From a virus: a stretch of DNA of 52,522 nt. A program made the translations under genes and the position numbers. Below, piece by piece: positions 1,917-47,131 of the stretch. Numbering within the stretch: the first letter of the stretch is position 1; every line of letters begins with the position of its first letter. The stretch covers positions 1-52,522 of IMG/VR virus record IMGVR_UViG_3300037150_000196; one strand, given 5' to 3'. The notes beneath the pieces were generated by a model, which had not been told where the DNA came from, made no database searches, and was given only the letters and a program-made list of their open reading frames with translations.

Positions 1917-2666
1917 TTATTTTTTAACTTCGGTTTCGTGGGCGGACGCTAACTCTGGGTGGGAATCAAGAACTCTTTTGGTAGCGGTTGAGTAGTCAAT
2001 CTTCTCGGAAGCAACTAATTCTTTAGCGAGTTTGTCAATCTGACCTAGACTGTTACCAGAGATTGTCGTATCTTCACTGGAACCGATTTCACTAAATAGG
2101 TTAAGGGCTGGGAGTTTTGTTACTAAAGCGTCAAAGGACTTAACTTGCTCATCACTTAGGGTCTTATAAAAACCGGCGAGCTCATTAGCAACAGCTGGAC
2201 CAAACTTACCCGACTTATTGGATTCGCTAGCAATAAGGCCACCGATCTTCTTTTCAATACGAGCGGCTTTCAACTCTTCAGCTGCTTTCATGCCTTCGTT
2301 AGCCATCTTCTCGATGTTGGCCATATAAGCTTTATCAACGACCATCTCGTTGGCTTTTAACTCTTTCTTTTCTTTCATTGGGGTTGTTTTTCCTTTCTCA
2401 TCTGCTGTATTTTCTTCTGGATCGTTATCGGCGTCTGGAGTTGGTTCCATTTCACCATCACCATCAGTATCAACTGTCTTGGCGACCGCTGGATCAACTT
2501 CTGGAACTGTGGTGTCGTGAGCGTCTACCAAAGCCTGCTCTTCGGGAGAACGATCAGCTGGATCTTTCGCTGTCGCTGCGTCTAAATCTAAAGTACCTTG
2601 AGCGTTATCTTCATTCATCTCTGGACCGTTTTCTACAATATTGTCGTCTGCTTTTTTCTGAGCCAT
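1917..2666 (-). CDS. Nested in-frame scaffold protein (internal start of the protease gene)
   Basis: Met369 of the protease-scaffold gene (ATG 2666) begins MAQKKADDNIVEN and would give a 249-aa acidic, then helical, scaffold. A copy of the late promoter element (TTGACA at 2751-2756, ACCCCCAC at 2731-2738) lies inside the coding sequence 65-90 bp upstream, and AGAAAGG precedes the ATG. In Mu the scaffold gpZ is likewise made from the 3' part of the protease gene I, and lambda does the same with C and Nu3. The separate product is inferred. Confidence 0.6.
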   Translation of the reverse strand: MAQKKADDNIVENGPEMNEDNAQGTLDLDAATAKDPADRSPEEQALVDAHDTTVPEVDPAVAKTVDTDGDGEMEPTPDADNDPEENTADEKGKTTPMKEKKELKANEMVVDKAYMANIEKMANEGMKAAEELKAARIEKKIGGLIASESNKSGKFGPAVANELAGFYKTLSDEQVKSFDALVTKLPALNLFSEIGSSEDTTISGNSLGQIDKLAKELVASEKIDYSTATKRVLDSHPELASAHETEVKK

Positions 2667-3770
2667 ATTATCTTGTGCCTTTCTATTTCTAGTTTCTTTA
2701 TTTTCTAAGTTTTCTTTCTCTATAAAAATCGTGGGGGTCGCGGAAGCTTTTGTCAAGCCCTTATTTTCAGAAGCAACTAATGGATCAAGTTTTTTCATCA
2801 ACGGACGGTTGGTTAATGCGCCACCAGTTAGGACATTTGGGATTTCAGCCGCGGTTTCAGGATCTACGTAAATCGTCCACCACTCAGGGGAGAAGAATTT
2901 GTATATTTTATCTTTTAAGAGTTGAGCTCCAAGCGGTGTCCAGTCAATGCCGGCCATTAACGAAGTTGTGCCATCAGCGTTCAATCTTGTTTCCATGCTA
3001 CTCAACCAGCCAGTCGCTGCTTTCTGATCGTGATCACAGTCGAGGGCTATCCCCTTGCGGACCTTACCGTAAAAGTTAGCAATCATATCATTAAAGACAT
3101 CAACCGTTAGAACAACTGGTTCGTCAAACGAATACTCCCACGTGCCAGTACGCATTAGCTCAATTTGAGTTGGTAAACCATTATCACCGTAACTAACGCC
3201 GTCATCTTCGGCCGCGGTTAAGGCACGGTCAACTAACTGAATAAAATTATAAAGATGATGTCCTTTAGCTGGTAACTCACAGGCCCCGTTAGAACATAAG
3301 TCGGACTGGATATTAAAACTCTTGGCAGCAGCACAGACTTTTTTTAAAGCGCTGGCTTTATCTTGAGCATTATCAAAGTCAGTTTGGTTAAAACGCGCTA
3401 GTGCAGCGGAAACGTGGGCTGAGTCGTGGATTGGTAATTTGCGATTACCTTCGGAGTCGATATAAGCAAAATCAGAGTCATTTAAATCGTTACGTTTTTT
3501 AGTTGTTAATTCAGCACTTAAGTTAGCGCACATTGTAGAAGTAATTTTATAAGCACTACAAACCTGGCAGATCTTTTTCATTGCCTGTTGCTTATCAGCG
3601 TCGTTCTCAAACGGTGTTTTAGCGAATTGAGCTAAAGAATTCCTAACGTGTGTCTCGTCGTGGATACATAAGAATCTATTGCCTTTTGAGTCTATATAGG
3701 CGTAGTCACTATCCTGTAAGGTCACTTGCTTATGCAGTGGCGTTAATTGTCGAGCTTTTAGTCCTGGCAT
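1917..3770 (-). CDS. Prohead protease fused to scaffold, with duplicated N-terminal domain
   Basis: A 617-aa multidomain head-assembly protein. Residues about 20-83 and 97-160 are two copies of one domain (DYAYIDSKGNR...IHDETHV and DFAYIDSEGNR...IHDSAHV), of the DUF6582 type. Residues about 170-335 resemble the Mu gpI-like prohead protease, with CDHDQKAATGW, FSPEWW and GGALTNRP. Then follows an acidic, disordered, Glu/Asp/Pro-rich linker and a helical C-terminal scaffold-like part. No SD precedes ATG 3770. A late promoter (3780-3809) predicts a transcript start about 3 nt upstream, so translation may be leaderless. The C-terminal part can also be made alone (see 1917-2666). Confidence 0.8.
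   Translation of the reverse strand: MPGLKARQLTPLHKQVTLQDSDYAYIDSKGNRFLCIHDETHVRNSLAQFAKTPFENDADKQQAMKKICQVCSAYKITSTMCANLSAELTTKKRNDLNDSDFAYIDSEGNRKLPIHDSAHVSAALARFNQTDFDNAQDKASALKKVCAAAKSFNIQSDLCSNGACELPAKGHHLYNFIQLVDRALTAAEDDGVSYGDNGLPTQIELMRTGTWEYSFDEPVVLTVDVFNDMIANFYGKVRKGIALDCDHDQKAATGWLSSMETRLNADGTTSLMAGIDWTPLGAQLLKDKIYKFFSPEWWTIYVDPETAAEIPNVLTGGALTNRPLMKKLDPLVASENKGLTKASATPTIFIEKENLENKETRNRKAQDNMAQKKADDNIVENGPEMNEDNAQGTLDLDAATAKDPADRSPEEQALVDAHDTTVPEVDPAVAKTVDTDGDGEMEPTPDADNDPEENTADEKGKTTPMKEKKELKANEMVVDKAYMANIEKMANEGMKAAEELKAARIEKKIGGLIASESNKSGKFGPAVANELAGFYKTLSDEQVKSFDALVTKLPALNLFSEIGSSEDTTISGNSLGQIDKLAKELVASEKIDYSTATKRVLDSHPELASAHETEVKK
2728..2756 (-). promoter_or_regulatory. Late promoter element inside the protease gene (copy 2)
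   Basis: On the reverse strand, TTGACA (2756-2751) is followed after 12 nt by ACCCCCAC. The box CACGAT (2733-2728) lies 17 nt from the -35 box. Three other late sites share this arrangement with a 13-nt gap. The predicted transcript starts near 2721 and would serve the nested scaffold. Confidence 0.55.
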
Positions 3771-3779
3771 ATTAACTTA

Positions 3780-3809
3780 ATCATGGGGGTCGCCAGAACA
3801 CCTTGTCAA
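3780..3809 (-). promoter_or_regulatory. Late promoter element for protease/capsid operon (copy 1)
   Basis: The reverse strand shows TTGACA (3809-3804), a 13-nt gap, ACCCCCAT, and a CATGAT box (3785-3780) 18 nt from the -35, followed by TAAG. The predicted start is about 3773 and the protease ATG is at 3770, so the message would carry only about 3 nt of leader. Confidence 0.6.
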
Positions 3810-3821
3810 GATCTCAAACAC

Positions 3822-3931
3822 TATGAGCTGGGTTCGAGGAGACAGTCCTCGCTTTATTTTCCCGTTGAACGGATCGGACTTACAACCGAAGGCTTGTGTG
3901 ATCACTTGCCTAATTTCTTACCCAGCTCATA
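3822..3931. ncRNA. Cloverleaf-like structured element of unknown role
   Basis: A perfect 12-bp inverted repeat (3822-3833 with 3920-3931, containing GAGCTGGGT) closes a region holding four more helices: CGAGGA/TCCTCG (3835-3851), CCG/CGG (3862-3872), TCGG/CCGA (3874-3889), and AGGC/GCCT (3890-3911) with an inner GTG/CAC. Both strands can fold this way. It lies between the methylase stop and the protease promoter and holds no ORF. The shape recalls a tRNA with a long variable arm, but T-loop and D-loop consensus bases are absent. It may be a 3' processing or termination structure, a packaging site, or an RNA gene. Confidence 0.5.
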
Positions 3932-3989
3932 AGGCTCTAATAAAATAATACACCAACCATCGTGCCAAAAAAAGTACGATGAAAATGGT

Positions 3990-4718
3990 TTAGGTGGCTG
4001 TCAAGCGTTTGTTTATTATGTCGATATACTCTGGTTCTTTCTCTATAAGAATATAATTTCGGTTAAGGTTTTTACAAGCCACACCTGTAGTTCCACTACC
4101 AGCAAAAGGGTCAAGAATAATATCACCTTCGTTACTACTTGATATTATTATTCTTTCAATCATTAAAAGTGGTTTTTGAGTCGGGTGAGCATTAAATTCT
4201 TTCATAGCAAAAAAAGGAATGGTATAGTGCCAAACATTTCCTAGCCCAGTCCATCTACATTTTATTCCATCTTCATTAGTAAACCACCCTCTGGGCTTGC
4301 CATCTTTTGTGTAAGGAGTTATGTGGTATTTTAATAATTTTTGTTCATTCCAAGTAAACCTATTTCCTTTTGTGTAATATAGTATTTCCTCTTTCATCGA
4401 TTTATAATTTTTACTACTTCCTCGGCCTTTGGTACGAGCCCAAGTTATCCAATTCCTAATAGTTCCATATTTATCTAATAGTAGTTTAAATTCAGATACA
4501 TTCGACCAACCCATAAAAGAATAAAAACTCCCATCATCTTTTAATACCCTAAAACATTCACCAACCCATTTTTCCGTAAAGCCAATAAAGTCATTAAAGT
4601 TATCCCAAGCAGCGTAATTTATCCCGTAGGGTGGGTCAACAATAACTAGGTTAATACTTTTATCGGGTATATCTTTCATAAAATCTAAACAATCACCCTC
4701 AATTACTTGGTTTACCAT
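3990..4718 (-). CDS. DNA methyltransferase (N4-cytosine/N6-adenine, beta-type order)
   Basis: This 242-aa enzyme should transfer methyl groups from S-adenosylmethionine to an exocyclic amino group in DNA. The catalytic motif DPPYG is near the N-terminus (residues 28-32) and the cofactor motif DPFAGSGTTG is near the C-terminus (about 204-213), which is the beta-class order. HPTQKP just before it is typical of this family. Target site unknown. It may protect phage DNA from host restriction. It stands apart from the head genes around it, with its own promoter (4727-4754) and structured non-coding DNA on both sides, as expected for an inserted cargo gene. Confidence 0.9.
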   Translation of the reverse strand: MVNQVIEGDCLDFMKDIPDKSINLVIVDPPYGINYAAWDNFNDFIGFTEKWVGECFRVLKDDGSFYSFMGWSNVSEFKLLLDKYGTIRNWITWARTKGRGSSKNYKSMKEEILYYTKGNRFTWNEQKLLKYHITPYTKDGKPRGWFTNEDGIKCRWTGLGNVWHYTIPFFAMKEFNAHPTQKPLLMIERIIISSSNEGDIILDPFAGSGTTGVACKNLNRNYILIEKEPEYIDIINKRLTAT

Positions 4719-4943: not shown

Positions 4944-6635
4944 CTAGTCACCGCTATCATCTTCAGAGTCGTCTTGGCTACCATCTGGGTAATTAACTAC
5001 TAGGCGGCAGCGGCAATTATGTACCAGTATTGAATTGCAAGTGTAGAATTGATACTCTGTACTTAAATCATATACAAAACCATGAAAAGGCTTAATCTCG
5101 ACACTAACGATCTCGTCCAAGGATATGTCGCTGGGGAATCCGTCAATAAGATCGCTAAAAGCTTGGGGTGTTGTCGTGAGGTCGTCACTAATAGACTTAA
5201 GGAGTCTGGAGTCACAATCAGAAACCAAGTTGTCGCCAATAGACTGATGATGAGTAAAAGATCTCCAGAGTTTAATAAAGCTAACGCGGAAGCAGCCCAT
5301 AGAGCGGTAAAGGGAAGTAAGCAGAGCCAAGATAGTCTTATTAAAAGAGCTAAAGGGGTTGAACTTAGACAAAGCAATTCCTCTCCTGCTGAGCTTATTA
5401 TTATAAGTACGCTTAAACAATTCTCCGTTAACTGTAATCCCCAATTTGCTATCGGCAAATATAATGTCGATATTCTTGCAGGAAACACCATCGCCGTGGA
5501 GATCTATGGGGGAGGCTGGCACGCTTCTAAGAACCACATTGCCAGGGATAGATACATCCTCGATCAAGGATATGACAGGCTTACTATCTGGGTCGATAAT
5601 GTCAAGACTCATCCTTTCGATCCAATTAGGTGCGCTAAACAAATAATCTCCTTTCTTGAGTTTAGACGCTTGAACCCAACCGTTGGGCGTTGCCATCGGA
5701 TGTTTTGGGGTGACGGCAATTCTTATATTAGAACGAGTCGTAAGATAGACAGCAAGACCGTTATAGTCCGCGATCATCTTGGCTGATACACCTAAAGCTT
5801 TAACTTCTTGACCCCCTAAAATAGCATTAGGGTGGGCACTTGGTGCGTCGTCACCAGAACTAAAGGAGTCGTTAATATCTATATCTCCATCATCGGCGTT
5901 ATCTTCACAGATTGGACAGGGATCATATTGAGTTTCCCATGTCTTCGTAGTAGCACCAGACTGTATCCCATAAGTTAAAGTACCTTGGCCGTAAGCGTTG
6001 ACTGATTCTGTCGTGGCGATTAAGTGCGCACGATCTGGGTCATTTACTAAATCACTTAAAGCGTCTTGCGCCTGTTGGACGGTATTACCTTGAGCAAGAC
6101 TATCAGCTATTGAGTTCTGGATCTTACCTATAGTGGTGTCGTTAAGGCCCTTAATTAGCTTGTCTACGTGGTCTCTAGCAGCTTTTTCAATCGTAGTTGA
6201 TAAATCGGTAGCCGCAAGGTCAGAAGCTGCGCCAGCGTCCGCCTCAGCGGCCATAGCGCCGGCTTGTTGAGCTTCGACTATGTGATTAAAAGTTATCTTA
6301 ATTAATAGTTTTGTTTCAGCATCACTAATTGCTTTAGCGGTGACTAGGACTTTGGCGTTAATGGCTGCTTGTTTTTCAGTAGACGTGTTTGGTTTAGCTA
6401 GCTCTTTGGCGTAGGCTTTCCAGTTAACGTATTTAACTGCCCGACTACCGAGACCCTTAAAGTAATTCTTTAACCCTAAAACCATAGCGGCTTCGGCTTG
6501 GACTAGCTTATCAAAAGCTTCGGGATTGTTCTTGTAACCCTTCTCCCAATCTTCGGCAGCGATATAACTAGATAAGGTGGCTGTGACTGTGGTTCTGAGC
6601 CTTTTTAATACGTTCTCTTGTTCTGAGGAAATCAT
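4944..6635 (-). CDS. MuF-like minor head protein interrupted by an intein
   Basis: The 563-aa precursor is a head-morphogenesis (Mu gpF-like) protein. The host part is residues 1-270 plus 541-563. It has a long helical N-terminal region, then TTESVNAYGQG, and the Zn-type signature CPICEDN...APSAHPN|CRCRLVVNY, split exactly between HPN and CRC by the intein. After splicing the mature protein would be 293 aa, a normal size. It acts inside the head next to the portal. The start ATG 6635 overlaps the portal gene by 68 bp, suggesting coupled translation. The C-terminus ends in an acidic tail. Confidence 0.85.
   Translation of the reverse strand: MISSEQENVLKRLRTTVTATLSSYIAAEDWEKGYKNNPEAFDKLVQAEAAMVLGLKNYFKGLGSRAVKYVNWKAYAKELAKPNTSTEKQAAINAKVLVTAKAISDAETKLLIKITFNHIVEAQQAGAMAAEADAGAASDLAATDLSTTIEKAARDHVDKLIKGLNDTTIGKIQNSIADSLAQGNTVQQAQDALSDLVNDPDRAHLIATTESVNAYGQGTLTYGIQSGATTKTWETQYDPCPICEDNADDGDIDINDSFSSGDDAPSAHPNAILGGQEVKALGVSAKMIADYNGLAVYLTTRSNIRIAVTPKHPMATPNGWVQASKLKKGDYLFSAPNWIERMSLDIIDPDSKPVISLIEDVSIPGNVVLRSVPASPIDLHGDGVSCKNIDIIFADSKLGITVNGELFKRTYNNKLSRRGIALSKFNPFSSFNKTILALLTSLYRSMGCFRVSFIKLWRSFTHHQSIGDNLVSDCDSRLLKSISDDLTTTPQAFSDLIDGFPSDISLDEIVSVEIKPFHGFVYDLSTEYQFYTCNSILVHNCRCRLVVNYPDGSQDDSEDDSGD
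5049..5076 (+). promoter_or_regulatory. Possible promoter of the antisense endonuclease
   Basis: TTGATA (5049-5054), a 16-nt gap and TATACA (5071-5076) lie in intein DNA coding for blocks F and G on the other strand. The predicted start falls at about the ATG of the antisense gene (5082), and no SD is present, so a leaderless transcript is possible. Confidence 0.35.
5082..5786 (+). CDS. Antisense Vsr/EDxHD-type homing endonuclease nested in the intein
   Basis: The frame encodes 234 aa wholly within the intein DNA on the opposite strand, in codon-aligned phase. Residues about 10-48 form a resolvase-like helix-turn-helix (VAGESVNKIAKSLGC, then VTNRLKESGVTIRNQ). Residues about 100-175 match the Vsr-like/DUF559 nuclease pattern: SPAE (Glu104), KYNVDIL (Asp130), AVEIYGGGWH (Glu140, His147), ARDRYILDQGYDRL (Asp156). 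The EDxHD homing endonucleases such as I-Bth0305I use this fold. The last 35 or so residues overlap the coding DNA for Hint block B and look less conserved. The likely role is to cut intein-free copies of the MuF gene and so spread the intein. Confidence 0.75.
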   Translation: MKRLNLDTNDLVQGYVAGESVNKIAKSLGCCREVVTNRLKESGVTIRNQVVANRLMMSKRSPEFNKANAEAAHRAVKGSKQSQDSLIKRAKGVELRQSNSSPAELIIISTLKQFSVNCNPQFAIGKYNVDILAGNTIAVEIYGGGWHASKNHIARDRYILDQGYDRLTIWVDNVKTHPFDPIRCAKQIISFLEFRRLNPTVGRCHRMFWGDGNSYIRTSRKIDSKTVIVRDHLG

Positions 6636-10791: not shown

Positions 10792-10797
10792 ATTATA
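10792..10797 (-). promoter_or_regulatory. -10 box of the terminase operon
   Basis: A perfect TATAAT followed by TAAGTAG and the ATG at 10784. No convincing -35 box was found (TTGGAC lies 15 nt upstream). Predicted leader is 1 nt. Confidence 0.4.
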
Positions 10798-11764
10798 CCC
10801 TAAACGCTTCCTGTCCAATTGGTATGAAAATAGTCTCGTCAGGCTGATTGGTATGAGTTTGGTTTCCGCCTTGTAATGTACTTCTCTGAGGAAAACTACG
10901 TATAACTACAAAATCATCAGGTGCATTATATTCGCTAATGTATATCTTGTTGGTTTTTGATACTTTCCGCGCCCAACTCCAAAACCTGTCATGGTCAAAT
11001 GCATCTTCTTTATATTCGGCAGTACCCCTATATGGTGGGTCGCAATAAATAATAGCATCGGATGGTATAGGTACTTCGTTATAATTACAAGAATATAGCT
11101 GCAGTTGCTCCAGTCGCTCCAGTCGCTGCAGTTGCTCCAGTCGCTCCAGTTGCTGCAGTTGCTCCAGTCGCTGCAGTTGCTCCAGTCGCTCCAGTTGCTG
11201 CAGTTGCTGCAGTCGCTCCAGTTCGTACACCCGTGTCTTTAATCTATGGCTTGTTCTAGCCAATCCCAGCCGTCTTTTATGCCAACTGTCTAACTTAAGT
11301 ATCTCATCTAAGTATCTTTGAGGTATTAAATCTCCCAAACCAGATGTGTCTTTGTTTATAACTAACATATGACCAGCACGTTTAAGTGGTTCAACTTCTT
11401 TCCCAAAGAGATATTCTGACTGACTATTTCCAAAAGACCAAATACATTGAACGTAGCCCACAAACCAATCATCATAATTGCCTGGGTTGGCCTTCACGTC
11501 TAAAAACATCTCCCTAGTAATAAACTCGGGCGTAAAAACACTGTCGTTAAATCCGCCACTGATCGCCTTACGTATAAGCTCGATCACATACTTGTTTTTA
11601 TCATTAGCGATAACCATCCAGCCCTTTTCATAAAACTTCTCCCCTATAGCAAGACCCCCACAAAATAAATCAACTAAAGTGGTTGCTTTAGGGTTAAGGT
11701 TTTTTATCGCAAGATATATTTTTAGAGCCGATTTTCTTTTACTGCCCATATATGGTACAGGCAT
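10793..11764 (-). CDS. DNA adenine methyltransferase (Dam/D12 class) with Leu-repeat insert
   Basis: This 323-aa enzyme methylates adenine N6. The N-terminal YMGSKRK and VDLFCGGLAIGEKF form the cofactor site, and IIYCDPPYRG is the catalytic motif. Between them, residues about 181-220 are a three-residue repeat with Leu at every third position (LERLQQLQQLERLEQ...), encoded by 9-bp tandem repeats. The insert precedes a segment like YSCNYNEV, where Dam enzymes are variable. It starts 2 bp after the ParB-like gene. Confidence 0.85.
   Translation of the reverse strand: MPVPYMGSKRKSALKIYLAIKNLNPKATTLVDLFCGGLAIGEKFYEKGWMVIANDKNKYVIELIRKAISGGFNDSVFTPEFITREMFLDVKANPGNYDDWFVGYVQCIWSFGNSQSEYLFGKEVEPLKRAGHMLVINKDTSGLGDLIPQRYLDEILKLDSWHKRRLGLARTSHRLKTRVYELERLQQLQQLERLEQLQRLEQLQQLERLEQLQRLERLEQLQLYSCNYNEVPIPSDAIIYCDPPYRGTAEYKEDAFDHDRFWSWARKVSKTNKIYISEYNAPDDFVVIRSFPQRSTLQGGNQTHTNQPDETIFIPIGQEAFRV
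11103..11220 (-). repeat. 9-bp tandem repeats within the Dam gene
   Basis: About 13 units of 9 bp, forward-strand forms ctccagtcg, ctccagttg and ctgcagttg, encode Leu-Glu-Arg or Leu-Gln-Gln triplets. Near-identical DNA units point to recent growth by slippage or recombination. Confidence 0.9.
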
Positions 11765-24197: not shown

Positions 24198-24941
24198 ATT
24201 AAACTATTCAAACTAACAGATTCAGACAACAAAACGAGAGATGACACCAAGTGGGGTGAGAACGTCACTCACCAGCTCAAGAAAGTCAAAAATCCCCAAC
24301 TGTGTTCAGGTGATGTCCTACACGCCTATACCAATGTCAATTTAGGGCTTATCCTAAATCCGATTCACGGCGATATCCAAGATCTTAACATCTGGGAGGC
24401 AGAGGGCGATATAGTGGTTAAAGATTACGGAAAAGTCGGGGTTTTTTCGCTTACCACCACTGGGCTGATACCACCTCCTGCGTGGATAAGTTCCGATAAA
24501 GAAAAAAGCGTTCGGGTAATGTTTGCGATTCTTTGTGCCGAGAGTGTCCTGAAGTACTTTGAGAATAAGTATCCAAAAGACAATAGACCGAGAAGAGCGA
24601 TAGAAGCAGCAAAAGGATACCTTAAACACCCAACGGCTCGTGCGGCTCGTGCGGCGGCTGATGCGGCTTATGCGGCTCGTGCGGCTTATATGGCTTATGC
24701 GGCGGATAATGCGGCTGATGCGGCGGCTCGTGCGGCTTATACGGCTTATGCGGCTTATGCGGCGGCTCGTGCGGCTTATACGGCTCGTGCGGCTTATATG
24801 GCTTATGCGGCTTATGCGGCGGCTCGTGCGGCTTATACGGCTTATGCTGAAATTGACTTTGCCCTCCTAGTTGATATGGCGGTCGAATTGATTATGAACC
24901 CAAAAAAGAAACCTAAAAAACTAGTAAAGGCTAAAAAATGA
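24198..24941 (+). CDS. Imm-5-like protein with Ala-rich repeat tail, AUU start
   Basis: The frame is open from 24177 to 24941 and its protein-like sequence begins KLFKLTDSDNKTRDDTKWGEN, well before the first ATG/GTG (GTG 24414). ATT at 24198 has TTGGAG 5 nt upstream, so AUU is the inferred start (247 aa). The middle has FAILCAESVLKYFENK and PRRAIEAAKGYL, the pattern of Imm-5-like domains seen in phages. Residues about 150-215 are an Ala-Ala-Arg/Tyr repeat encoded by gcggct-type 9-bp units. The tail is Lys-rich. Role unknown. Confidence 0.65.
   Translation: MKLFKLTDSDNKTRDDTKWGENVTHQLKKVKNPQLCSGDVLHAYTNVNLGLILNPIHGDIQDLNIWEAEGDIVVKDYGKVGVFSLTTTGLIPPPAWISSDKEKSVRVMFAILCAESVLKYFENKYPKDNRPRRAIEAAKGYLKHPTARAARAAADAAYAARAAYMAYAADNAADAAARAAYTAYAAYAAARAAYTARAAYMAYAAYAAARAAYTAYAEIDFALLVDMAVELIMNPKKKPKKLVKAKK
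24640..24845 (+). repeat. Tandem 9-bp repeats coding Ala-Ala-Arg/Tyr
   Basis: About 22 near-identical units (gcggctcgt, gcggcttat and relatives). A second forward frame is also open through the whole repeat, as expected for such DNA. Confidence 0.9.
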
Positions 24942-42885: not shown

Positions 42886-43868
42886 TAAAATATCTTTCCA
42901 CGATAAAACATCGGACCATTATCTCCATTATTACCACCAATACTAGGATCACCAGGAATTCCGGTAGAAGTAGTTGAATTAGGCCAACTATTAACTCCTA
43001 AATCTTCGTCAAGCAGTAAGGAGTGACCAAACTGATCCAGTAAGGTCATCTCACGGTCAACAATCATCTGTAACTTAACCTCGCCTTCGGTAGCTTTAGA
43101 ATCGCCCTCATCTTGTTTTGGTGAGAATTGACCATACTGTTGTTGCTGTAAAGTCCAACCAGCAGCAATTAATGTAGCTATTCTACCTAAAATAGGCGGA
43201 TAGGGAGTAGGAAGTGGAATATCGTAACTGTTATGTAGTCGGTCGTTTATATAATCTTCAGCAGCCGAGCGCATCTCATCTAATACCTGATCAGTAACAG
43301 CTGGGACGTTCATTAATCCAGCCTCATTTCTAATCCTGTCTATGGTGGTAAAGTGGCCTACTTGACCACCAATAACCCAGGTGGCGTCTGTGATAGGGGT
43401 CTCATCAGTCGTTAAACTGTTCTGATAAGTATAACCGTAGTAAAAGGCAGATCCTCCGGAGGTATCAGTGTATTCGGTATTATAAGATATAGGATCAATT
43501 TCAACTATTTGAATCGAGGTTGGAGTCGTTACTGTTGGATCGGGAACGCCAGCACCAGTGTTGGGAATACGATAAAAATCAATCGAATCTCCATAAGCAA
43601 CGAAGATTTGTTCGTAAATATTATGCTCATAGATTAAAGCCGTGGTTAAGGTCACCACTAATCCAGTAATAGACTGAACAAAAACCCTTTCCATATTCTG
43701 GTTAGTCGGCGAACCAAAGAATAGTGGGTCGTTAATATCTATCTCCGCAACGGTAGCAACACTAAGAGTAGTTGCACCAATAAGGGCATCGCTCGTTAAA
43801 CTACTACTACCTTTCTGGTTTGCTGGATCGAAGTTGGCTGCAACTAGGTTTGTGGCTATTAGTGACAT
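42885..43868 (-). CDS. Head-tail adaptor-like protein
   Basis: 327 aa. An N-terminal beta module (about 20-110) is followed by a helical part with DEMRSAAEDYINDRLHNSY, IATLIAAGWTLQQQ, like gp36/DUF1320-type adaptors. Fits before the gpG-like gene. Confidence 0.65.
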   Translation of the reverse strand: MSLIATNLVAANFDPANQKGSSSLTSDALIGATTLSVATVAEIDINDPLFFGSPTNQNMERVFVQSITGLVVTLTTALIYEHNIYEQIFVAYGDSIDFYRIPNTGAGVPDPTVTTPTSIQIVEIDPISYNTEYTDTSGGSAFYYGYTYQNSLTTDETPITDATWVIGGQVGHFTTIDRIRNEAGLMNVPAVTDQVLDEMRSAAEDYINDRLHNSYDIPLPTPYPPILGRIATLIAAGWTLQQQQYGQFSPKQDEGDSKATEGEVKLQMIVDREMTLLDQFGHSLLLDEDLGVNSWPNSTTSTGIPGDPSIGGNNGDNGPMFYRGKIF

Positions 43869-46800
43869 TATTTTCTTTCTGTTTTAAGTATTGTCCTGTA
43901 AATTGCTTGCGTCAATATAGCTATTTCTTTAGCCTGACTTAATATGGTCTGGTTGTATGATTTAATATTACTAAACATGACAACCTTAGCCTTGCCTAAT
44001 TGGGTTTTGGTGGTTGTTTGTTTAATCGATCCCTTGCCAAGTTGAATTTGATTTGTAATTCCAAGTATATTGGCCTTACCTATCTGAGTTTTAAGACTCG
44101 TAACGGTTATCCGTGCCTTACCAGTAATTGTCTCGGTATCTGTAACTTTAATCGATGCCTTACCGAGTTGGTTCTGAGTGATGGAGCTCTTTATTCGTGC
44201 TTTACCTAGATTGGTTTGAGTGGTGATTCCTACTATCCTAGCCTTACCTAATTGGGTTTTAAGGTCGGTTAGGGATATACGCCCCTTACCTGTTTGTGTC
44301 TTGGTAGAAGTAACGGTAATCCTCGCTTTACCTGTCTGAGTATGTGTTGGAGAGCTACCAATATTGGCCATTCCCAATTGAGTCTGGGTAGTGGTCTTCT
44401 TGATCGCCGCCTTACCCGTCTGAGTTTTAGTAGTCGAAGATGTAACACGAGCTTTACCGGTAATGGTTTTTGTATCAATTAGGGTTATTCTTGACTTACC
44501 CAGTTGGGTCTTTAGATCCGTAACAATTAAACGAGCCTTACCAATCTGGGTCTGAGAAGTGGTATTGGCGATATCAGCCCTACCAGTAATCGTCTTGGTA
44601 GTTGCCGTAGTAATAATAATATTAGCCTTACCGAGTTGAGTCTGAGTGCTAGTTAGGGTTATTCTTCCCCTACCAGTAATGGTTTCGGGCGTTGTATTAG
44701 TAATACGCGACTTACCGTTCTGGGTCTTCAATATTACATTAGTAACTCTCGCTTTACCTAGTTGAGTCTGATCGGTCGTATTGGTTATCTTAGCCTTACC
44801 AGCAATGGTTTGAAGTGTTGTATTTTTAATTGCCGCTTTACCAACAATTGTTTTGACAGTGTTATTTCTTATATTGCCTTTACCTAATTGGGTTCTTGTT
44901 GTCGATGACGTTACGGTAATATTGGCCTTACCCAGCTGGGTTTGAGTGGTTGTGTTAGTTACTTTAGCCTTACCCGTAATTGTTTGGGTCGTTTTAGCGG
45001 TGATCCTTGACTTACCCAAAATTGTTTTAGTTGTAGTGACGATGACTCGGGCTTTGCCCAACTGGGTCTTTACAGATGTCTCGGTGATACGTCCCTTACC
45101 CGCTTGAGTCCTAGAAGTCTTGGCCGTAACTCTTGCTTTGCCCAACTGGGTATGAGTGGTCTGGGCTGTTATTCTACTCTTACCATATTGAGTCCGGTTA
45201 GTGGTATTGATAATATTTGCTTTGCCCAACTGGGTTTGAGGAGTCTGCAGAGTAATACGCGTAATTCCTAACTGCGTCTGTTGTGTCTGGGCAGTAATCC
45301 GTGATTTACCCACTAGCGTCTGGGTGGTTATTTGAAGTACGGAAGCTTTACCTAGTTGAGTTTGAGTGGTGGTCGCAGTAATCCGTGATTTACCGGATTG
45401 GGTTTTGTTAGTAAATATGGCAATGCTAGCCTTACCCAACTGGGTTTGGGTAGTTGTTGCTTTAATGTTAGCTTTACCGGTCTGGGTCTTGGAAGTAGTG
45501 GCGAATATATTGGCTTTACCTAATTGGGTATGAGGAATGATACGGGGCAACGGCTTAAAGGCAAGTACTATCATAGCCCAGTCGTCTGAGGCTGATCCTG
45601 TATAAGTATCTGTATAGCTACCCACTAAAGATCCAAGTAGATAGTCCATCGCACCTAGCGTAGAGCTCGTTGTATCGTTACTTAGTTGTTTCTGATTAGT
45701 GGTTGCGGATGTTGAGCTATTTCGAGAAAGTGTTCCTACGATCAAGTCACTTGGGTCAACAGTAGTAACACTGACAGCTGGATTACCCGATGTTCCCGTA
45801 GCTGTATTATAAGCGTCCGGTTGAAGAGACTGGTATACACCCGTGAATGAAGCTGAAGTAAACTTATTGGAAGTAACCGCTCCCGCAATTACAACCGTGA
45901 TGGTTTGTGTGCCGGTTGTTGGACCGAGGAGATACCACATCTCAGCCGCCATATTATTCTGATTAAGATTGGTGACCTTAACTAGAGATTGTATTCCATA
46001 AGTAATACTGGTTATCGTTCCTGTGCCAGCAACGGTCTGATAGATATCGGCAGCAACAATTAATATAGAATTAGAACCAGTTACGGTGTGGCTCCAACTC
46101 AGTGAAGTGCTGGTTGTGGAAGTATCGAAAGCGGTCGGAGTTATCCACGCTTTACCACTCTGATTCTGCGTAGTAGTATTCTTAATTGAGGCTTTACCCG
46201 ACTGAGTCTGGGTATCTGTTTTCTGAATTCGTGCCTTACCAAGTTGAGTTTGGGTATCTGTCTTTTGAACTCGAGATTTACCCAACTGAGTCTTGGTATC
46301 AGTTACCTTAATCCGTGCTTTACCAGTTTGAGTACGGGTATCCGTTAAACCAATGCGTCCTTTTCCAAGCTGAGTGTGAGTAGTGACAGCATTTCCCGAT
46401 GAGGCCAAGTTTCCAATCGCTAGAACGGTTTCCGTCCAATTTTGAGATTGAGAGATACTATATCCTTCAGTATAGGTATTAGGAGTTGTAACAAGTCTGT
46501 AACCAGCACCAGCTCCGTCTGGCATTGTGCCATTATTAAGAGCTATTTTATTAATAGTCTGACCATTAGAAGCAGTAAATCCAGCAGAAGAAGACCCAGT
46601 ACTACTAATAAGAGCAACAGCATCAAGAAGCATATCTCCTGCGCTTAGAGTGGTTATATTTTCAGTCGGAGTAACGCCTGTGCCTGATGTTTGAGCAACT
46701 ACTTCGGGGGCGACGTTCTTACAGTTATTAAAGGCATAAGCGGCAATACCATAATAAGTGTTACCACTAAAATTAACGACAATATTATAAGTTGTTGTGC

Positions 46801-47131
46801 CAACATTACCAAGCCAAAAAATTTGAGTATGAACATTTCCTGAGACCCCAGCATTAGTATCTTGGCTTGAGCCAATTTGAGTCATACTAACCCCATTAAA
46901 GGTTACTCCAGTCGCTGTAATAGCAGGGTCAGCTACGAAAACTTCAACGTAAAGGTTTACATTAGAGCCGACATGAAAAGAGAAAGCAAAAGTATCACTG
47001 GAAGATTGCACCCCACTAATACTGGTTGAGTTAATATTATTATTCCAAACAATACCTGGTGGGGGCTGAATAAAAAGATTAAACCTATCTACTAACGGCT
47101 TATGCGGTTGCCCACGCCCAAAACGTGCCAT
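43868..47131 (-). CDS. Giant fibre/adhesin with 43 copies of a 14-residue repeat
   Basis: 1087 aa. Two beta-sandwich domains (about 30-240 and 335-535) appear paralogous. Between them are six, and after the second 37, copies of the repeat T-Q-L-G-K-x-x-I-x-x-T-T-x-x. The repeat makes a likely beta-solenoid or stalk. A short tail ends it. Overlaps neighbours at single bases. Best inferred as a long tail fibre or head fibre. Confidence 0.65.
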   Translation of the reverse strand: MARFGRGQPHKPLVDRFNLFIQPPPGIVWNNNINSTSISGVQSSSDTFAFSFHVGSNVNLYVEVFVADPAITATGVTFNGVSMTQIGSSQDTNAGVSGNVHTQIFWLGNVGTTTYNIVVNFSGNTYYGIAAYAFNNCKNVAPEVVAQTSGTGVTPTENITTLSAGDMLLDAVALISSTGSSSAGFTASNGQTINKIALNNGTMPDGAGAGYRLVTTPNTYTEGYSISQSQNWTETVLAIGNLASSGNAVTTHTQLGKGRIGLTDTRTQTGKARIKVTDTKTQLGKSRVQKTDTQTQLGKARIQKTDTQTQSGKASIKNTTTQNQSGKAWITPTAFDTSTTSTSLSWSHTVTGSNSILIVAADIYQTVAGTGTITSITYGIQSLVKVTNLNQNNMAAEMWYLLGPTTGTQTITVVIAGAVTSNKFTSASFTGVYQSLQPDAYNTATGTSGNPAVSVTTVDPSDLIVGTLSRNSSTSATTNQKQLSNDTTSSTLGAMDYLLGSLVGSYTDTYTGSASDDWAMIVLAFKPLPRIIPHTQLGKANIFATTSKTQTGKANIKATTTQTQLGKASIAIFTNKTQSGKSRITATTTQTQLGKASVLQITTQTLVGKSRITAQTQQTQLGITRITLQTPQTQLGKANIINTTNRTQYGKSRITAQTTHTQLGKARVTAKTSRTQAGKGRITETSVKTQLGKARVIVTTTKTILGKSRITAKTTQTITGKAKVTNTTTQTQLGKANITVTSSTTRTQLGKGNIRNNTVKTIVGKAAIKNTTLQTIAGKAKITNTTDQTQLGKARVTNVILKTQNGKSRITNTTPETITGRGRITLTSTQTQLGKANIIITTATTKTITGRADIANTTSQTQIGKARLIVTDLKTQLGKSRITLIDTKTITGKARVTSSTTKTQTGKAAIKKTTTQTQLGMANIGSSPTHTQTGKARITVTSTKTQTGKGRISLTDLKTQLGKARIVGITTQTNLGKARIKSSITQNQLGKASIKVTDTETITGKARITVTSLKTQIGKANILGITNQIQLGKGSIKQTTTKTQLGKAKVVMFSNIKSYNQTILSQAKEIAILTQAIYRTILKTERK
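43977..45530 (-). repeat. 42-bp coding repeat array (37 units)
   Basis: Each unit codes TQLGKARIxxTTxx or a close variant; two units have two extra residues. A shorter array of six lies at about 46140-46378. Codon usage differs between units, so the array is old, not freshly amplified. Confidence 0.9.

Follow-up and report, generated by a model that had tools for sequence, protein, structure and literature searches.

A predicted homing endonuclease encoded antisense within inteins of phage MuF-like genes

Described relatives of the element

Canonical mobile inteins carrying LAGLIDADG or HNH enzymes combine a Hint domain, precise in-frame insertion at a conserved host site and an element-borne endonuclease. 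The locus analysed here resembles them in these respects and differs in the placement of the predicted endonuclease, which in canonical inteins lies in the frame of the spliced polypeptide and here has a gene of its own on the opposite strand. I-Bth0305I, described as a group I intron enzyme (PMC3943268), and the related EDxHD homing endonucleases (PDB 3r3p) are alike in having a Vsr-like catalytic domain and modular DNA-binding parts; in contrast to I-Bth0305I, the helix-turn-helix (HTH) is N-terminal here, an intein harbours the gene in antisense orientation and the match to the motif is partial. Antisense endonuclease genes have been reported in nuclear group I introns, e.g. that of the His-Cys enzyme I-DsqI (PMC9548176), and such introns likewise place an endonuclease gene opposite a self-splicing element. 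In a group I intron, however, splicing is done by an RNA; the strand facing the endonuclease gene does not code for protein, and no open frame has to be maintained on it. The ShiLan element offers another parallel, namely an out-of-frame, same-strand HNH endonuclease hidden in a stop-free in-frame insertion of phage methylase genes (PMC11855218); it differs in strand, in nuclease family and in the lack of a detectable splicing domain or ribosome-binding site, and is not an intein.

The latter paper also cites a preprint on non-canonical intein architecture in actinobacteriophages (Gosselin et al., bioRxiv 10.1101/2025.01.02.630785). Judging by its title, it deals with non-canonical inteins of actinophages, and MuF inteins of Gordonia phages could fall in its scope. 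We found no precedent in the literature for an antisense endonuclease inside an intein; this statement does not extend to the full content of that preprint, which leaves priority uncertain.

The DNA under study, hereafter the window, is a viral stretch of 52,522 nucleotides (IMG/VR record IMGVR_UViG_3300037150_000196). Among its other features are a 1087-aa ORF with a long run of TQTQLGKARI-like repeats (43868-47131, minus strand), a DNA methylase-like ORF with an internal LEQLQRLEQLQQ leucine/glutamine repeat (10793-11764, minus strand) and an ORF whose second half has an alanine/tyrosine/arginine repeat (ARAAYTAYAAY; ORF 24414-24941, plus strand).

The intein and the gene opposite to it

The interrupted host gene is a MuF-like head morphogenesis ORF of 563 aa (4944-6635, minus strand), for which Phage_Mu_F was matched at 1e-5, below its cut-off. 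Its intein of 270 aa (810 bp; 5016-5825, minus strand) runs from Ala1 (5823-5825) to Asn270 (5016-5018), is followed directly by Cys+1 of the host protein (5013-5015, minus strand) and sits between residues HPN and CRC of that protein. Pfam assigned it to Intein_splicing with E = 9e-13, Thr39 and His42 of block B were invariant (alignment A10), and Foldseek matched its model to the GyrA, DnaB and RecA inteins with probability 1.00, yet with no E value as low as 0.001. The sequence criteria for an intein are satisfied, i.e. Hint splicing blocks at both ends, a C-terminal Asn and Cys+1, with Ala as residue 1 in the window; an earlier sequence-only reading, which had proposed an Ala1 Hint intein in a MuF-like gene, is thereby confirmed. 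The combination of Ala1 and Cys+1 is compatible with class 2 splicing.

In the AlphaFold model both Hint halves have pLDDT of about 90 or above. The N-terminal half (5631-5825, minus strand) is sense-constrained and reaches 90-98 over residues 1-65; the C-terminal half, with blocks F and G (5016-5138, minus strand), is mostly above 90 and shows sense constraint at its end. The linker, intein residues 128-217 (5175-5444, minus strand), is open, for the most part modelled below 50 and under little sense constraint, in agreement with the initial impression that the central sense translation looks arbitrary. No endonuclease match to the sense middle of this intein was found in Pfam.

Opposite to it lies an ORF of 234 aa (5082-5786, plus strand), the codons of which lie exactly over sense codons, as had been inferred from the letters alone. 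The ORF itself, Pfam, profile searches and AlphaFold together point to an HTH followed by a Vsr/EDxHD-like nuclease. Pfam matches (HTH_58, 1.8e-4; MTES_1575, 1.3e-4; DUF559, 0.0099) were under curated cut-offs and in consistent order; among 98 antisense proteins of relatives, 60 matched MTES_1575 and up to 42 matched HTH families. A three-helix HTH was placed at residues 8-41 (5103-5204, plus strand) by Pfam, family search and AlphaFold, so that the proposed HTH holds. The nuclease domain was located at residues 102-197 (5385-5672, plus strand) by PDB profile search, AlphaFold and fold search. The profile of the antisense family matched 3r3p (I-Bth0305I domain) and 3hrl (endonuclease-like) near 1e-5; the single protein of the window gave no match against PDB with phmmer. 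Structure prediction, which had been suggested as a check, returned a nuclease fold with mean pLDDT of 90.5, whose best PDB fold match was 3r3p (Foldseek probability 1.00, E only 2.5e-3, TM 0.5 over the domain). The absence of any nuclease match would have refuted the original proposal; matches were obtained both by sequence and by predicted fold, and the modelled protein satisfies the criterion of a Vsr-like catalytic fold.

Five residues of the Vsr/EDxHD fold had been listed. Four of them are conserved in the family, Glu104 in 89, Asp130 in 91, Glu140 in 91 and His147 in 74 of 91 sequences (codons 5391-5393, 5469-5471, 5499-5501 and 5520-5522, plus strand), but Asp156 is not, and was rejected as the final Asp of the EDxHD motif; its neighbour Arg155 is conserved in 85 of the 91. 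The motif fits only in part, and the protein is therefore called EDxHD-like.

Codons TTA, CTA and TCA in the antisense gene are stops in the sense frame. Since the sense linker must remain stop-free, the nuclease gene avoids them: the probability of their complete absence over 234 codons by chance is 1.7e-6 at the codon usage of this phage, and about 6e-7 given the Leu and Ser content of the antisense protein.

Homologous loci, selection and start signals

A tblastn search with the antisense protein matched 124 phage records, the lowest E being 7e-23; in 108 of them the match spans 80% or more of the query. Most matches lay opposite head morphogenesis, minor capsid and MuF-like genes or unnamed ORFs, and hosts of the phages included Salmonella, Escherichia, Pseudomonas, Vibrio, Gordonia, Klebsiella, Edwardsiella and Rhodococcus. 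At least 136 loci were collected from IMG/VR by four pattern scans built on sub-alignments, the alignment of 16 sequences being too diverse to yield one; a single query had 436 matches, and a scan for relatives with the window protein alone gave no match. The arrangement is shared by about 150 viral loci, the homologous loci form 100 clusters at <75% identity, and strict peptide patterns recovered at least four loci of the same arrangement from bacterial assemblies labelled Arcobacter, Pseudomonas, Micromonospora and Ornatilinea.

In 151 of 154 loci no stop interrupted the codon-aligned opposite frame along the entire match (mean 234 codons), and the two other opposite frames had on average 14.4 and 7.9 stops. 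Stops in the antisense frame of all homologous inteins, which would have counted against the proposal, were hence not encountered. The three exceptions were a free-standing relative (L014, see below), L024, where a frameshift breaks both frames, and L154, where the match extends beyond the host gene. L154 and L134 were rejected as real exceptions, because their stops either belong to the end of the host gene itself or precede the start of the antisense ORF.

At every one of the 154 loci except one, an intein ORF occupies the other strand. Pfam detected Intein_splicing in 92 of the 96 sense proteins, most of which also have MuF, minor capsid or portal matches flanking it. Of 97 representative inteins, 95 begin with Cys (that of the window with Ala), 96 end with Asn and 94 have Cys as the next residue. 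Intein lengths fall into classes of about 270, 320 and 370 aa, which track the number of HTH modules in the antisense ORFs (L022-L157): nearly all inteins of <300 aa have one, most of 300-345 aa two and most of the longest class three. A few intein-bearing MuF proteins (alignments A6 and A7) also matched the polymorphic-toxin domains Ntox50, Gln_amidase and PBECR2 in Pfam.

The division of selection between the strands was assessed in 31 pairs of loci, no locus being used twice; two pairs have counts identical to those of another pair and probably are duplicates. In this alignment of frames the first sense codon position is the antisense wobble position. Differences at sense positions 1, 2 and 3 numbered 1714, 607 and 1004 in the middle, and 352, 160 and 532, and 214, 139 and 409, in the two Hint ends, so that the middle varied most at the antisense wobble position in 31 of 31 pairs and the Hint ends at the sense wobble position. 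Single-base codon changes behaved likewise: in the middle 956 were silent only in antisense versus 260 only in sense, and in the Hint ends 298 and 243 were silent only in sense versus 125 and 65 only in antisense. Along the intein, the preferred wobble position switches close to both Hint boundaries. The region 5646-5780, where the C-terminal part of the antisense protein is opposite the N-terminal Hint half including block B, codes on both strands and shows low change at both wobble positions, lowest in the bin 5691-5735. Central changes consequently track the antisense and not the sense frame, the opposite of what would have spoken against the proposal. Homologous loci share ancestry, and significance values therefore overstate the number of independent events, despite the 100 clusters and 31 pairs.

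The start of the antisense gene in the window, ATG 5082-5084, is inside sense block F (5061-5105). Read in reverse complement, the block F motif HVYNLE of most relatives gives a sequence like TTCGAGGTTATAAACATG, which forms a Shine-Dalgarno sequence a few bases ahead of an ATG. The block F His codon is CAT rather than CAC in 60 of 71 cases (P 2e-11), and block F leucines are CTC in 55 of 80, compared with 28% in the same genes (P 5e-14). Block F thus shows a strong preference for the synonymous codons that provide the Shine-Dalgarno sequence and ATG of the antisense gene. The window copy starts at another place in block F than most relatives and has no clear Shine-Dalgarno sequence. A promoter-like site had also been suggested ahead of the ORF at 5049-5076; a consensus scan did not find it, and promoter-like sites in the region did not exceed those in shuffled sequences, leaving that suggestion without support. 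In Klebsiella phage RCIP0054 (L015), genes at 476-2217 and 4001-4458 flank the antisense nuclease (2330-3226) on the same strand, with a similar situation in L016; given such small same-strand genes on both sides, read-through transcription could express the L015 nuclease.

Mobility and alternative readings

Comparison of related phages revealed precise presence and absence of the intein. The MuF gene of E. coli phage Bas70 equals that of Snoke without the intein, the two differing by exactly 816 nt at the junction AHPN/C with 90.6% identity elsewhere, and Snoke and Salmonella phage BPS11Q3 share 95.2% identity in the intein, 69.9% in the N-extein and 83.5% in the other extein. Sporadic presence, together with a host gene more diverged than the element, satisfies the criterion for a homing element. 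Empty sites and divergence patterns support homing, as far as it may be deduced from comparing sequences, the act itself being unobserved. In Escherichia phage KMB36 (L013, MuF gene 2060-4030), a related intein is located at a second site, RTST/CRARDG, of the same MuF gene.

In the Acinetobacter phages P1068 (L014:2330-3223) and IME285 (L160:455-1348), a free-standing relative of the nuclease adjoins an intein-free MuF gene. It has 12-24 stops opposite, and 12 of its codons are stops in the aligned opposite frame; the constraint of stop avoidance is gone outside the intein. The tree places it among embedded genes (support 0.95 with L148 and L007), and from this nesting it may have left an intein.

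We consider it highly probable that the element is a mobile intein with an antisense-encoded homing endonuclease. Established by the comparisons are the open and conserved state of both frames, the split selection, the choice of codons at the start of the antisense gene, the predicted nuclease fold, the precise intein presence and absence and a host gene that diverges faster than the intein, whereas inference alone stands behind expression, cleavage, splicing and homing. The sense strand would encode two Hint halves and a linker, which would splice out of the MuF capsid protein, and the opposite strand, codon over codon, a separate HTH and Vsr/EDxHD-like endonuclease. The latter would cleave MuF genes that lack the intein, at the insertion site or close to it, and repair would then copy the intein in. 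Apart from having to stay open, the sense linker would be largely a by-product, and the ribosome-binding site and start codon of the nuclease would, in most relatives, come from Hint block F read in reverse complement. The central idea of the sequence-only reading, that one stretch of DNA serves both a splicing element and its endonuclease, is thus supported by homology, fold, open frame and selection, its homing part by inference.

The most resilient alternative, albeit an improbable one, is that a real nuclease-like antisense gene is present by chance and serves a purpose other than homing, e.g. as a regulator, an exclusion nuclease or another DNA-acting enzyme. Cleavage data are absent, and the free-standing relative beside an intein-free MuF gene would suit such an enzyme; however, the near-exclusive location opposite intein ORFs, the pattern of presence and absence, the intein-versus-extein divergence and the best structural relative, itself a homing endonuclease, all speak for homing. 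Still less credible is an element that no longer splices, i.e. an insert tolerated in MuF with only the antisense nuclease functional. Ala1 of the window could be taken in this sense, and ShiLan demonstrates that an in-frame insertion may hide an endonuclease without any splicing domain (PMC11855218). The Hint ends are, however, under sense constraint, and almost every member retains block B, the terminal Asn and Cys+1. Ala1 itself, with Cys+1, does not exclude class 2 splicing. The view that the antisense ORF is open merely by chance, or mirrors codon usage on the sense strand with selection on the sense protein only, can practically be discarded, because, although codon-aligned antisense frames do stay open in GC-rich genes (>1000 codons in Pseudomonas L002), many of the genomes are AT-rich (the window has 41% GC), changes in the middle fall mostly on the antisense wobble position, which refutes this reading for the family, and the antisense protein, unlike the sense middle, matches nucleases and folds confidently.

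Returning to the antisense-encoded homing endonuclease, we lean towards regarding it as part of a widespread, unrecognised intein architecture, in which splicing and homing would reside on opposite strands of the same DNA, the start signals of the endonuclease would lie in block F and the sense linker would be merely a stop-free by-product. In most phage records examined, the nuclease beneath the head morphogenesis gene is unannotated or at best a hypothetical protein, which is of relevance for annotation. The family provides a large natural set of codon-over-codon antisense pairs, where the product of one strand is constrained at its ends and has a middle that is a by-product, and the free-standing relative is a natural control in which the constraint of the overlap is released. 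The evolution of overlapping genes, the origin of linkers and the joining of endonucleases to inteins thereby become directly testable.
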